Of a stretch of DNA of 64,000 nucleotides, positions 11,198 to 15,550 are shown one piece after another. A program made the position numbers and the translations under genes. This DNA is from Chloroflexota bacterium (GTDB lineage: Bacteria > Chloroflexota > Chloroflexia > Chloroflexales > Herpetosiphonaceae). The stretch spans positions 310,001-374,000 of the forward strand of contig JAIUOC010000006.1 in NCBI GenBank assembly GCA_020161265.1, in the 5' to 3' direction. The notes below the pieces were generated by a model that saw nothing but the letters and a program-made list of their open reading frames with translations, had not been told where the DNA came from and ran no database searches. Numbering within the stretch: the first letter of the stretch is position 1; every line of letters starts with the position of its first letter.

Positions 11198-11229
11198 CCA
11201 GATATTTAACTGAATGAGTGAGGCAACGT

Positions 11230-13146
11230 ATGCAACGAACCGTTCGCATGGGCTTGCTACTGTTGTTGGCTTTTGGATTAATGCCCTTGATTCAACGCCC
11301 AGCGCAGGCAGCGACCCTCGATGATCAGATTATTGCCGATGAAATTCTGGTAACGTTTAATGATGGCTATCGTGTCAGTGCGAATGGGGCATTCTTCGAA
11401 GGTTCTAAGGCATTGAAAAATGGGCTAGGCATTGGGCCGTTGGTCTCGACCCAAGCACTTGATGGCGCTGGTCAAGTGGCAATGCTGAAACTTCCGGCAG
11501 GCACGAATGGCGATGCCAAAATTGCCCAATTGCTCAAAAATCCCGCAGTACGCTATGCCGAATACAATGCTGTGCGTGAGATTTTGGTCGATCCCAATGA
11601 TGAATATTACACCGAACAATGGGGCTTGCCCAAGATTGGCGCTAATGCTGCTTGGGATATGACCCAAGGCAACAGTTTGGTGATTGCCATTATTGATACT
11701 GGTGTTTCACCAACCCACCCCGATTTGGCTGGCCATGTGTTGCCTGGCTACAATGCCTTGCAAAATAATAACAATAGCCAAGATGATCAAGGCCACGGTA
11801 CCGCCATGGCTGGGATTGCCGCTGCCCTAACCAATAATGGTCAAGGTGTAGCTGGAGTTTGTTGGAACTGCCAAATCTTGCCAGTCAAAGTGCTGAACAG
11901 TCGTGGTCAAGGCACTTCGGCAGATATTGTCGAAGGCATGTATTGGGCTGTTGATAATGGTGCACGGATCATTAGTATGAGTTTGGGTGGCCCACGGGGC
12001 ACGCAAGCCGAACAAGATGCAGTCAATTACATTTATAGCAAAAATATTCCACTGTTTGCCTCATCCGGCAATTCGGGCGATGAAGGCAATCCTCGGATGT
12101 ATCCAGCCGCCTTTGATCATGTGATTGCGGTTGGAGCCACGTCAATCGATGATCGGGTTGCAAACTTCTCGTCATATGGCGATTATGTTGATATTGCTGC
12201 TCCAGGCGTAGATATTGTGACGACTGGTTGGGATCGTGGTGATGGCTATGAAATTGGTAGCGGTACATCGCCAGCCTGTCCGTTTGTGGCTGCCACGGCG
12301 GCTTTGGCGTTGAGTGTTTGGCCTGAACTTTCAGTCGATCAAATTGAAAAGTTGATTACTGGTAGTGCCGTTGATATTATGACTCCTGGCAAGGATGTTT
12401 ATAGTGGTTTTGGCCGACTGGATACCTATAAGACCGTGCAAAATGCTGTTTTGCGCACGATTCCAGGCGAACCACAACCGCAACCACCAGCTCCGCCAGC
12501 GCCGCAGCCACCAACTCCACAACCACAACCAGGTAATCCGGCGTTTGTGCCTGTGGGAGCGCCCCCGTTGCCTGCACCTGTCGGCGAAGTCTATTTCCCC
12601 GAAACTGGCCATAACTTGCGTGGCGAGTTCAAAAACTACTGGGATCGTAATGGTGGCTTGGCGGTCTTTGGTTTCCCAATTAGCGAAGAATTTACCGAAC
12701 AAACCCCTGAAGGTTCGTTTACGGTGCAATACTTCGAACGCCAACGCTTTGAATTTCACCCTGAAAAAGCTGCACCTTACAACGTATTGCTGGGTCGCTT
12801 AGGCGATGCTGTGCTGCGGGATCGCGGCGACGATTGGTCTAACTTCCCCAAAACTGGGCCAGAAAATGGCTGTATCTATTTCGATCAAACCCAGCATAAG
12901 ATTTGTGGCGAGTTCCGCAAATATTGGGAAAACAATGGGCTGAATGATCCTGCTTTGAGCAAATATGATCGCAGCTTGCAATTGTTTGGTTTGCCATTAT
13001 CGGAGCCAACTACTGAAACCAATCGCGATGGAGCAACCGTCACGACCCAATGGTTTGAACGCGGGCGCTTTGAGTATCACGAAGGTCAAGGTGTGCTGTT
13101 AGGTTTGTTGGCCAAAGAATATGCCAACAATCGCAGTTGGCGCTAA
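11230..13146 (+). CDS. Secreted subtilisin-like (S8) serine protease with two C-terminal repeat modules
   Basis: The 638-residue precursor has a signal peptide (to about ARPAQA-like cleavage near residue 27), a propeptide, and an S8 catalytic domain. The triad is Asp156 (IIDTGVS), His189 (GHGTAMAG) and Ser347 (SGTSPAC), with oxyanion Asn281. A Pro/Gln-rich linker near 405-445 leads to two copies of a ~75-residue module (about 455-530 and 545-632) of the form TGHNLRGEFKNYWDRNGGL, then FGFPISEEF, then YFERQRFEFHPE. The start at 11230 is supported by GTGAGG 7 nt upstream. The next two genes carry the same module, which suggests a shared cell-surface or matrix role. Confidence 0.95.
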   Translation: MQRTVRMGLLLLLAFGLMPLIQRPAQAATLDDQIIADEILVTFNDGYRVSANGAFFEGSKALKNGLGIGPLVSTQALDGAGQVAMLKLPAGTNGDAKIAQLLKNPAVRYAEYNAVREILVDPNDEYYTEQWGLPKIGANAAWDMTQGNSLVIAIIDTGVSPTHPDLAGHVLPGYNALQNNNNSQDDQGHGTAMAGIAAALTNNGQGVAGVCWNCQILPVKVLNSRGQGTSADIVEGMYWAVDNGARIISMSLGGPRGTQAEQDAVNYIYSKNIPLFASSGNSGDEGNPRMYPAAFDHVIAVGATSIDDRVANFSSYGDYVDIAAPGVDIVTTGWDRGDGYEIGSGTSPACPFVAATAALALSVWPELSVDQIEKLITGSAVDIMTPGKDVYSGFGRLDTYKTVQNAVLRTIPGEPQPQPPAPPAPQPPTPQPQPGNPAFVPVGAPPLPAPVGEVYFPETGHNLRGEFKNYWDRNGGLAVFGFPISEEFTEQTPEGSFTVQYFERQRFEFHPEKAAPYNVLLGRLGDAVLRDRGDDWSNFPKTGPENGCIYFDQTQHKICGEFRKYWENNGLNDPALSKYDRSLQLFGLPLSEPTTETNRDGATVTTQWFERGRFEYHEGQGVLLGLLAKEYANNRSWR

Positions 13147-13161
13147 TCTCGTTTAGAATGG

Positions 13162-13194
13162 CTGAAGCCAGCTTGTCTCTTGGGCTGGCTTCAG
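13162..13194 (+). terminator. Hairpin after the subtilase gene
   Basis: CTGAAGCCAGC (13162-13172) pairs perfectly with GCTGGCTTCAG (13184-13194). No T-tract follows, so termination may be weak or Rho-assisted. Confidence 0.5.
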
Positions 13195-13290
13195 TATCAC
13201 ATAAGATGGGGAAACGACGCTCGATTCGGTTGCGAGAGAACAACCAGCGTGGTACACAACTTGATGAAGAGGCGCGTTGATAGGTTTTAG

Positions 13291-13305
13291 GCTGCTGAGA
13301 GCAGC
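13291..13305 (+). other. Leader hairpin upstream of the first repeat-module paralogue
   Basis: GCTGCT pairs with AGCAGC around a GAG loop, ending 8 nt before the GGAGG ribosome site at 13314-13318. A hairpin in the same position precedes the second paralogue (14498-14513), so the leader seems to have been duplicated with the gene or kept by selection. Confidence 0.45.
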
Positions 13306-13323
13306 ATTTATTTGGAGGACTTT

Positions 13324-14400
13324 GTGGTTTTACGTCGGATTTTAGGCATCGTGACTGCAGCCCTTGCGGTAGTTACCCTCTCTGTTCAACCTCGATCAAC
13401 CGTCGCCGCTGAACCAATCAAGCTTGATACCCAATGCTTTGATGTTCCTGGGATTACCAATTGTTTAGATGACAAGTTTTTGACCTATTGGCGCTCGAAT
13501 GGTGGATTGCCAGTTTTTGGCTACCCCATCACTGCGGCTGCCAATGAAGTTAACGCCGACACTCAGCAAAGCTACTTGACCCAATGGCTCGAACGTAATC
13601 GTTTTGAGTTGCACCCCGAAAATGCCGGCACACCCTACGAAGTCTTGTTGGGCTTATTGGGCAAAGAACGGCTTGCGCAATTGAATCGCCAAATCGAACC
13701 ACGCGAAGCAGGCCCAGTTGAAGGCTGTTTGTGGTTTGAGCAAACTGGTCATAACGTGTGTAACCAAGCAGGCAATTTGGGTTTCAAGAGCTATTGGCAA
13801 TCGCATGGCTTGAAAATTGATGGCTTGGATACCTATGCTCGTTCATTGCAATTGTTTGGCTTGCCCTTAACCAGCGCCCAAACTGAAACTAACGCTAATG
13901 GTGATACGGTTGTCACCCAATGGTTTGAACGTGCTCGCCTCGAATGGCACCCAAGCAACCCTGATGAATTTAAGGTACTCTTAGGCTTGCTTGGCAAAGA
14001 AATCCTTGATGGTCGCAGCCAACCGATCCCAAGCCCAACTCCAGCGCCCATCCCAAGCCCAACTCCAGCGCCCATCCCAAGCCCAACTCCAACTGACCCT
14101 TGTGCCAGCACACCTGAGCCAATTTCAGCACGGATCAAACCTGCCAAATGTGGCCCTGCTGGAACCGTCTTTACTTTTGATGTCTATGGGTTCCAAGCAA
14201 ACGAAGATGTTGGTTTCTGGATCACTGATCCCAGCGGAAACAATGTTGGCACAGCCGACACCTTGAATATTGGTCCACAAGGTGGAATCAATGGGCTTCA
14301 ATTTAACACCCGAGGTTTCTACTCAGGTACATGGCAATTTACTATGCAAGGTGTATCGAGTGGCCATACTTCAATCATCTATTTTACGATCACCCAATAA
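13324..14400 (+). CDS. Secreted repeat-module protein with C-terminal beta-sandwich-like domain (paralogue 1)
   Basis: This 358-residue exported protein of unknown function has a signal peptide ending near VAAEP. It has two copies of the ~75-residue module seen in the upstream protease: CFDVPGITNCLDDKF followed by YWRSNGGLPVFGYPI and WLERNRFELHPE, then CLWFEQTGHNVCNQ followed by LQLFGLPLTS and WFERARLEWHP. A three-unit PIPSPTPA linker follows, and then a ~90-residue domain that looks like an Ig-like or carbohydrate-binding sandwich. Start GTG 13324 is set by GGAGG 5 nt upstream. The second module contains paired cysteines. Confidence 0.85.
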   Translation: MVLRRILGIVTAALAVVTLSVQPRSTVAAEPIKLDTQCFDVPGITNCLDDKFLTYWRSNGGLPVFGYPITAAANEVNADTQQSYLTQWLERNRFELHPENAGTPYEVLLGLLGKERLAQLNRQIEPREAGPVEGCLWFEQTGHNVCNQAGNLGFKSYWQSHGLKIDGLDTYARSLQLFGLPLTSAQTETNANGDTVVTQWFERARLEWHPSNPDEFKVLLGLLGKEILDGRSQPIPSPTPAPIPSPTPAPIPSPTPTDPCASTPEPISARIKPAKCGPAGTVFTFDVYGFQANEDVGFWITDPSGNNVGTADTLNIGPQGGINGLQFNTRGFYSGTWQFTMQGVSSGHTSIIYFTITQ

Positions 14401-14430
14401 GTTGATTGCTCGAATTGATTGAGTGATTTC

Positions 14431-14469
14431 AAACCCAGTTTGTTGCTTGTGGCAATAAACTGGGTTTTT
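14431..14469 (+). terminator. Intrinsic terminator
   Basis: AAACCCAGTTT (14431-14441) pairs perfectly with AAACTGGGTTT (14457-14467) and runs into TTTTT (14465-14469). It separates the two paralogues, so each may be transcribed on its own. Confidence 0.75.
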
Positions 14470-14497
14470 GTTATGATTAGGCTATTCCATTATTTTG

Positions 14498-14513
14498 ATG
14501 CTGTTTGCAGCAT
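14498..14513 (+). other. Leader hairpin upstream of the second repeat-module paralogue
   Basis: ATGCTG pairs with CAGCAT around TTTG, 4 nt before the GGAGGA ribosome site at 14518-14523. It is positioned like the hairpin at 13291-13305, although its sequence has drifted. Confidence 0.4.
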
Positions 14514-14527
14514 GTTTGGAGGAAATA

Positions 14528-15550
14528 GTGAGTGTGATCCGTCGAATGCTTGGTTTGGCGACTGCAACCTTGGCAGTGGCTGCCTTAGCAATCCAGCCAC
14601 GCCCAACCGCCGCCGCTGAGCCAATTATCCTTGAAACCCAATGTTTTGATGTGCCTGGAATTGTCGAATGTTTGGACGACGATTTCTTGAGCTATTGGCG
14701 CAATAACGGTGGCTTGCCAGTGTTTGGTTACCCGATCACTGAAGCGGCTGATCAATATAATGTTGATAGCGATGATTTCTATTGGACGCAATGGCTCGAA
14801 CGCAATCGTTTTGAGTTGCACCCCGAAAATGCCGGCACGCCTTACGAGGTGTTATTGGGCTTGTTGGGCAAAGAACGCTTGAGCCAACTTGGCCGTGAGA
14901 TCGAGCCACGCGAAGCTGGCCCAGTTGAAGGCTGTTTGTGGTTTGAACAAACGGGCCATAATGTTTGTAACCAAGCAGGCAATTTAGGTTTCAAGAGTTA
15001 TTGGCAATCGCATGGCTTGAAAATTGAAGGCTTAGATACCTATGCTCGTTCATTGCAATTATTTGGTTTGCCCTTAACTAGTGCCCAAACTGAAACCAAC
15101 GCCAGCGGCGATACCGTGATCACCCAATGGTTTGAACGTGCCCGTCTCGAATGGCATCCAAACAATCCTGATGAATTTAAGGTACTTTTGGGCTTGCTCG
15201 GCAAAGAAATTCTCGATGATGTCAGCGAACCACTGCCACCAGCCGAACAATGTGCCCAAACTCCCGATCCCGTGTCGGCGAATATTCGGCCCACCAAATG
15301 CCCTCAAGTTGGCACGGTTGTCTTCTTCGATTTCTTTGGTTTCCAACCAAATGAAGAAGTCGTTTTGTGGGTTGTCGATCCTGCTGGCGAAGTCTATGAA
15401 TTTGATGAAGGAACTACGATTGGGCCAAGTGGCTCAATTGAGAACGCTGAATGGCCAACGGCTGGTTCAGAAACGGGTTTGTGGCTGATTTCGTTGGAAG
15501 GCAAGACCAGCGGGCATATTGCTGATATTTATTTTACCGTCATGCCCTAA
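14528..15550 (+). CDS. Secreted repeat-module protein with C-terminal beta-sandwich-like domain (paralogue 2)
   Basis: This is the close paralogue of the gene at 13324-14400: same signal peptide type (VIRRMLGLATATLAVAALAI), same two modules, and nearly identical central sequence (EPREAGPVEGCLWFEQTGHN). It lacks the PSPTPA linker; a short PLPPAEQC stretch joins the modules to the C-terminal domain. That domain has diverged more than the modules. The start GTG 14528 follows GGAGGA by 4 nt, and GTG 14534 is also possible. The tandem pair arose by local duplication, and the function is unknown. Confidence 0.85.
   Translation: MSVIRRMLGLATATLAVAALAIQPRPTAAAEPIILETQCFDVPGIVECLDDDFLSYWRNNGGLPVFGYPITEAADQYNVDSDDFYWTQWLERNRFELHPENAGTPYEVLLGLLGKERLSQLGREIEPREAGPVEGCLWFEQTGHNVCNQAGNLGFKSYWQSHGLKIEGLDTYARSLQLFGLPLTSAQTETNASGDTVITQWFERARLEWHPNNPDEFKVLLGLLGKEILDDVSEPLPPAEQCAQTPDPVSANIRPTKCPQVGTVVFFDFFGFQPNEEVVLWVVDPAGEVYEFDEGTTIGPSGSIENAEWPTAGSETGLWLISLEGKTSGHIADIYFTVMP

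Follow-up and report, generated by a model that had tools for sequence, protein, structure and literature searches.

What is the paired repeat module that three adjacent secreted proteins share in this member of the Herpetosiphonaceae, and what does it do for them? The window, a stretch of 64,000 nucleotides from contig JAIUOC010000006.1, carries the genes of a subtilase and of two further proteins, here termed A and B. Chloroflexota reportedly have no LPS outer membrane, and the surface retention of their secreted proteins is poorly described. Sequence comparison and structure prediction suggest that the module is, most probably, a divergent relative of the LGFP repeat and a putative non-covalent cell-wall-binding domain of Chloroflexota.

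As a first-pass annotation of the DNA had described, the subtilase and its two duplicated neighbours each hold two copies of the module (Table 1). N-terminal hydrophobic signals, with no further predicted membrane segment, agree with its view that all three are secreted. The position at which it began the locus, 11230, is an in-frame ATG inside the subtilase ORF. The subtilase belongs to peptidase family S8 by its PF00082 match and its D/H/S motifs (DTG 160, GHGT 192 and GTS 349), which are consistent with an intact triad; among the 16 S8 matches of the genome it alone lies on an ORF with the module. Proteins A and B are duplicates that share 88% identity across the module pair and just 41% across the C-terminal 92 residues, while the subtilase pair is 46-47% identical to both of theirs. 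A Pfam scan assigned neither A nor B to any family at E ≤ 1.

Table 1. Features of the subtilase-A-B locus (positions in the window)
Feature	Position	Strand	Residues	Description or basis
Subtilase	11218-13146	+	642 aa	ORF; secreted S8 protein: N-terminal signal, prodomain, S8 catalytic domain, Pro-rich linker, C-terminal module pair
S8 catalytic domain, subtilase	11668-12411	+	151-398	PF00082, E 1.1e-54
Module copy 1, subtilase	12580-12825	+	455-536	Profile/alignment; without Cys pair
Module copy 2, subtilase	12865-13134	+	550-639	Profile/alignment; with insert
Protein A	13312-14400	+	362 aa	ORF; secreted: module pair, Pro/Ser/Thr linker, C-terminal domain
Module copy 1, A	13429-13680	+	40-123	Profile/alignment
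Module copy 2, A	13720-14016	+	137-235	Profile/alignment
C-terminal domain, A	14122-14397	+		Putative MG2-like β-sandwich by homology to B (41% identity, 92 aa)
Terminator-like hairpin	14431-14467	+		17-pair stem, 3' of A, between A and B
Protein B	14495-15550	+	351 aa	ORF; secreted: module pair and MG2-like C-terminal domain
Module copy 1, B	14636-14887	+	48-131	Profile/alignment; model range 2-83 aligns to MytA C-terminal domain
Module copy 2, B	14927-15220	+	145-242	Profile/alignment
MG2-like C-terminal domain, B	15275-15547	+		Predicted structure against solved structures

The six window copies align with 19 invariant columns. The repeat noted by the first-pass annotation is confirmed, but its length of about 75 residues is not, the copies spanning 82-99 residues, with a 10-13 residue insert following YWxxxG in the second copy. 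Four residues of the polar signature QxFERxRxE (the Q, the first E, the first R and the last E) do not vary in any of the 81 rows, in either copy. The Cys pairs are all-or-none: both residues are present in 49 first copies and absent from 29, with one mixed case and two gapped rows, while 63 second copies have both, 18 neither and none is mixed. A profile search detected each window copy at E 1e-36 to 1e-42; since these values include the training sequences, the non-circular evidence comes from matches elsewhere in the same genome, which reach E 8e-39; among 698 reversed ORFs that profile matched nothing better than E 0.79. The module is a real conserved domain, and no Pfam model matched the window copies at its cut-off, in keeping with the earlier remark that similar modules of other Chloroflexota secreted proteins have no described function.

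Absence outside the locus would have weakened the surface interpretation, and a module private to the locus was considered; both are ruled out by the 51 copies that the profile found in 28 ORFs of the same genome. All 41 genomes searched (the window's own and 40 of its order) carry the module, and exactly two copies are present in 102 of 106 module ORFs of relatives. Across the phylum it is largely missed by Pfam: our profile matched 153 of 400 genomes, the LGFP Pfam model 30. Of 586 genome stretches with the module, the 80 best come from Chloroflexota, from Thermomicrobia or from records whose title says only 'bacterium', and tblastn found it in 2 of 72,556 plasmid records, both from Chloroflexota in the broad sense.

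The LGFP repeat is a cell-wall-binding repeat of corynebacteria, and four lines point to its fold for the module: weak in-register Pfam matches, an AlphaFold model, profile-profile similarity and chimeric proteins. LGFP was the top Pfam family over 81 module pairs (20 of 81 at E ≤ 1, best E 2.2e-5), ahead of a runner-up with 10 of 81 and a best E of 0.02, and in several matches the profile start LG.P falls on LGYP or GYP of the module. The window subtilase matched LGFP at residues 541-574 with 18.1 bits, below the curated PF08310 cut-off of 22 bits, while A and B gave no LGFP match; one divergent member reached 21.8 bits. The module pair of B was modelled alone, because in a first AlphaFold model the MG2 domain filled the match list, and gave a mean pLDDT of 96.3 and a pTM of 0.91. 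Among 499 PDB chains aligned with VIA-align, where Z under 8 can reflect a common arrangement, the best was 6sx4, C. glutamicum mycoloyltransferase A (MytA; Z 7.2, rmsd of 2.8 Å over 70 residues), followed by 6swz, the C-terminal domain of the same enzyme alone (Z 6.8), and by a third chain at Z 3.1. The predicted helix-strand order likewise resembles MytA, in which an N-terminal helix precedes a three- to four-stranded antiparallel sheet. Foldseek alone returned nothing significant for the pair model (best E 0.49), a search of solved-structure sequences with the module gave chance matches or none, and at the top of the BFVD matches stood an unnamed protein (E 6e-4), followed by two lysins of Gordonia phages (E 6e-3 and 0.06). 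Comparison by hhalign with the LGFP-type pairs of kinases and chimeras gave a score of 31.1 (P 3.6e-4, probability 37%), 199 of 200 column-shuffled controls scoring at most 23.1 and the remaining one being a 4-column artefact. Seven chimeras (L230-L234, L236 and L237) carry a module pair and then an LGFP-type pair in one protein.

Module and LGFP repeat are alike in predicted fold, in a helix with W/GG that leads to FG.P (LG.P in LGFP) and then QxFE, and in their placement on secreted envelope enzymes and phage lysins. They differ in the longer module copy and in its FERxRFE, which stands where the LGFP-type pairs of this analysis have FxxGxM. Copy number differs as well, since PF08310 repeats typically occur several in tandem, whereas nearly all host proteins hold exactly two module copies and the lysins one. 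LGFP repeats are about 54 residues long and form a run of five in MytA (PMC11299179). A match to an LGFP-like domain, which the first-pass annotation had named as making the module known, was largely obtained, in the form of a probable divergent LGFP-fold relative, although below the Pfam cut-off.

Viral sequences provide independent support for wall binding through the position of the module. Of 26 viral-contig loci with the module, fifteen code for amidase endolysins in which a single copy lies at the C-terminal end or close to it, where an endolysin usually has its wall-binding domain. An amidase profile matches the module ORF in 14 of these loci (13 distinct proteins), and the fifteenth, L261, matches XlyA at 6.9e-23; in all of them the module is C-terminal to a peptidoglycan-cutting domain. 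Six of the amidases belong to Pfam Amidase_2. Flanking genes gave phage-family matches at E<1e-10 in L249, L251 and L252, and weak matches or none in L248, L250 and L253. As in other amidase endolysins, a single presumed binding domain follows Amidase_2 or glucosaminidase plus Amidase_2; this one falls outside the wall-binding families known to Pfam, no LysM, SH3 or PG_binding match being found in the seven proteins scanned. A search of viral contigs with A6, the profile of the LGFP-type pairs, yielded no relative. The catalytic half of one lysin has matches to known amidases in 10 phage records out of 50,697, the match stopping before the module in the eight of ten listed, and tblastn found the module itself in none of the 50,697.

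The module probably holds proteins on the cell wall, since it occurs dozens of times per genome across Chloroflexota and ends the wall-cutting enzymes of some viruses. On host proteins two tandem copies would work together inseparably, in many cases each with a disulfide, either directly behind the signal peptide or at the C-terminal end. They would keep secreted enzymes and binding proteins attached to the wall, with peptidoglycan or a polysaccharide linked to it as the most plausible ligand. Unlike Corynebacterium, Chloroflexota are not known to have a mycolic outer layer. Phages may have taken a single copy to direct endolysins to the same wall, presumably that of Chloroflexota hosts. At the window locus, the module would hold the subtilase and the two MG2-domain proteins at the cell surface.

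The cargo of the host proteins also speaks for a wall role, in that it includes YkuD (L,D-transpeptidase), VanW, CAP, sortase, polysaccharide deacetylase and M23 domains, but a large share has no obvious link to the wall, such as NHL and GSDH propellers, 5'-nucleotidase and ice-binding domains. The module might instead bind other modules and so build a surface layer, to which phage lysins would attach rather than to the wall. Its presence on enzymes and on adjoining enzyme-less proteins would suit such docking, as would four loci (L108, L143, L152 and L156) in which a sortase with an N-terminal module adjoins a gene with a C-terminal one. Docking nevertheless appears improbable: the 12 module sortases found among 30 sortase loci have no second module ORF within short flanking stretches, so that pairing of sortase and substrate through the module does not hold as a general rule; among solved structures, the module comes nearest to the C-terminal domain of a protein associated with the wall; and a wall ligand explains the single lysin copies more simply. 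In a module tree, moreover, A and B lie nearest each other and then group with proteins elsewhere in the genome, not with the subtilase. With these relatives and 28 module ORFs of unrelated cargo, the first-pass proposal of a protease docked to its neighbours is not borne out, and of its small matrix or surface system a likely surface role survives but not a system peculiar to the locus. The hairpin that separates A from B, one of 11 terminator-like sites found against 6.6 expected, makes an operon or three-gene system less likely still, although the subtilase-A-B triple is kept in five of five other Herpetosiphon genomes fetched.

Some cargo is glycoside hydrolase-like (GH5, GH39 and GH99), as would be expected if the module bound external carbohydrate in prey walls, sheath or exopolysaccharide and not the cell's own wall. 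There is little probability in this, given that the module also accompanies cargo expected at the own envelope (sortase, VanW and YkuD), phage endolysins, and proteins of the phototrophic genera Chloroflexus, Roseiflexus and Oscillochloris, which are among the matches listed. Because phototrophs carry it too, the module is not a predator trait, which speaks against the earlier suggestion of a role on prey or sheath in a gliding predator. A ligand-free spacer or stabiliser of secreted proteins would fit the extreme diversity of cargo and a pair predicted as one rigid unit, but is very improbable beside the invariant polar signature, proteins with little besides the module (L065, 235 aa) and its terminal or near-terminal position in endolysins.

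Wall attachment would give the module a role like that of SLH, LysM and CWB2, the wall-targeting modules of Bacillota, which it resembles in that a single generic domain serves a wide range of unrelated secreted proteins. It shows no similarity to them in Pfam scans and comes in two copies, not the three of SLH and CWB2. A more tentative extension is a phylum-specific code for surface display, in which the paired LGFP-fold domain would recognise a wall polymer peculiar to Chloroflexota, position hydrolases, transpeptidases and sortase, and be exploited by phage endolysins. In parallel, a membrane Ser/Thr kinase might sense the polymer through an extracellular LGFP pair, in the place that PASTA domains occupy elsewhere.

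The module, found in every genome of the order searched, is a concrete candidate for surface retention in Chloroflexota, and dozens of hypothetical proteins per genome would become readable as wall-associated. It also singles out a group of phage endolysins whose target is probably the wall of Chloroflexota, for the labelling of which a GFP-module probe is a possible handle.

Beyond the module, the predicted C-terminal domain of B resembles MG2 domains of complement and α2-macroglobulin (VIA-align Z up to 9.5; Foldseek match 2p9r, E 1.8e-4), a search run with B only, from which A was assigned by homology. The likelier start codons, each with GGAGG upstream, are GTG 13327 rather than TTG 13312 for A, and GTG at about 14528 or 14534 for B.

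ORF calls and a profile search bore out the three ORFs, and the six module copies in them, reported by the first-pass annotation. The subtilase and proteins A and B each display an N-terminal hydrophobic signal, with no other membrane segments predicted, and the S8 domain of the subtilase is complete, motifs included. There are 16 S8 matches in the 6.0 Mb genome holding the window (G000), and only the subtilase carries the module on its ORF; this fusion recurs in five further Herpetosiphon genomes as well as in the relatives' genomes G006, G007, G008 and G015. The module pairs of A and B are 88% identical, while their MG2-like tails share 41% identity. The earlier proposal of a local docking system is disfavoured by the 46-47% identity of the A/B pair to that of the subtilase and by the nearest kin of A and B in the tree after each other, loci L064, L062, L063 and L066, which lie elsewhere in the genome. 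The subtilase-A-B gene triple is kept in 5/5 other Herpetosiphon genomes fetched, and thus some degree of co-selection of the three genes is possible.

Coordinates of the module proteins and associated features
Feature	Sequence	Coordinates	Observation
Subtilase	window	11218-13146	S8 domain with module pair
Protein A	window	13312-14400	module pair, MG2-like tail
Protein B	window	14495-15550	module pair, MG2-like tail
C-terminal domain of B	window	15275-15547	MG2-like (macroglobulin) beta-sandwich (complement C5, Z 9.5), with much faster A/B divergence than in the module
Second module ORF of a viral contig	L249 (same ORF in L260)	1315-2142	~2.3 kb upstream of an amidase lysin; weak TAT-like signal, no Pfam catalytic domain found
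LGFP-pair kinase	L235 (G000:C12)	788-2659	one predicted transmembrane helix

A profile built from the six window copies revealed 51 matches within 28 ORFs of G000, 26 of which contain two copies (E<1). All 41 genomes searched contain the module (that of the window plus 40 relatives, covering 16 genera of the order), as do 153 of 400 genomes sampled across the phylum. Exactly two copies were found in 102 of 106 module ORFs from named genomes, one ORF having four and three having one, two of the latter being truncated where the available sequence stops. Across a 63-pair tree, labelling the copies as first or second requires 7 changes, versus 42 with shuffled labels. These copy counts and label changes indicate that the module pair is an old unit with a few exceptions. 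In the motif QxFERxRxE the Q, first E, first R and final E are identical in 81/81 rows in both copies. The cysteines preceding the helix occur all-or-none as a pair (first copy, 49 both, 29 neither and 1 mixed, with two rows gapped; second copy, 63 both, 18 neither and 0 mixed), a pattern expected of a disulfide. A more divergent subfamily in G000 (L078-L082) has an altered first copy (...SR.W.WG ... VQYFDK.RMEI ... WFVTNGLL..E), barely detected by the profile, and a second copy closer to normal (VQAFERR.LTYTP).

AlphaFold modelled the module pair (81 rows) confidently as a single unit, and in VIA-align both entries of C. glutamicum mycoloyltransferase A (MytA; PDB codes 6sx4 and 6swz) rank first, well clear of the remainder. 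According to PMC11299179, MytA alone among proteins with LGFP domains has a reported experimental structure; each repeat is described there as one helix with a sheet of 3-4 strands, and its reference 59 is cited for an interaction of LGFP domains with peptidoglycan-arabinogalactan. Weak LGFP matches, several beginning at an FG.P or LG.P motif, were obtained for 20/81 members, with the second family not close. When ten LGFP-type pairs were scanned alone, LGFP was the top family in all ten and six passed the cut-off. Profile-profile comparison of the module with LGFP-type pairs from kinases and chimeras gave a P of 3.6e-4, the real score beating 199/200 shuffles, of which the remaining one is a 4-column artefact. 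The LGFP-type pair of Chloroflexales chimeras reads QRFERGAMYW, a form midway from the module's QYFERARFEY to the kinase's QYFEGGIMYY. Common ancestry of the module and LGFP is thus likely, and the module itself falls outside PF08310. Natural intermediates exist within the order as four-repeat secreted proteins (L230-L234, L236 and L237), in which a module pair precedes an LGFP-type pair.

The sole Pfam match in the subtilase module region is LGFP, at 18.1 bits, below the 22-bit cut-off; no Pfam family was found for A and B at E<=1, nor any NCBIfam name over the window modules. Among the openly licensed PMC papers listed for LGFP, Chloroflexota and cell wall binding domains, no description of the module was found; LGFP and Chloroflexi co-occur in one of them, in a table of a virome study, and none of those listed for LGFP alongside Chloroflexota genera contains LGFP.

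A domain scan of all 28 module ORFs of G000 identified as cargo S8, GH5 and GH39-like, GH99-like, CAP, 5'-nucleotidase, sortase, VanW, YkuD and polysaccharide deacetylase, together with PPC, lamin-tail, DUF5107 and PD40 propeller domains; for many of the ORFs no cargo could be named. Among 85 proteins drawn from named genomes, including Herpetosiphon, the commonest cargo comprises GSDH and NHL propellers, sortase, cellulase and CAP, and M23 and ice-binding domains likewise occur. At L108, L143, L152 and L156, a sortase with an N-terminal module pair directly adjoins a secreted protein with a C-terminal pair, the partner being an ice-binding protein at two of these loci, a beta-propeller at another and of an unnamed type at the fourth.

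The strongest independent clue to module function is provided by viral lysins. IMG/VR scans returned 14 loci with the pair profile and 26 with single-copy rows, the sets overlapping. An amidase profile matches the module ORF in 14 of the 26 viral-contig loci, including by construction the six proteins, all Pfam Amidase_2, from which it was built; as L266 and L267 are identical in sequence, the distinct proteins number 13. L261 adds one more amidase, assigned from its similarity to XlyA, and L257 is lysin-like by eye, with no solved relative found. All 15 viral amidases have one module only, placed at the C terminus or close to it, and the remaining ten of the 26 loci encode host-like secreted proteins carrying either one copy or two. 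Neighbouring genes match tail proteins (L249 and L251) and phage exonuclease and methyltransferase families (L252), and the flanks of L248, L250 and L253 display weak phage-family matches or none. On the host side, cargo with wall-cutting, wall-linking or wall-modifying activity fits the same wall role as the lysins. Chloroflexi are reported to be without an LPS outer membrane and to have peptidoglycan that usually contains L-ornithine; PMC3368417 cites a paper that, by its title, concerns a peptidoglycan-polysaccharide complex of H. aurantiacus, and we infer this complex to be a candidate ligand of the module.

LGFP repeats also form the C-terminal extracellular pair of a membrane Ser/Thr kinase (L235 and L218-L229), which seems to be a wall-sensing equivalent of the PASTA kinases. 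Its ectodomain matches 29/41 genomes, some matches being non-kinase chimeras. The 5/5 kinases scanned belong to PF00069, and the kinase motif was present in 12/12 loci examined, in L228 within a separate ORF.
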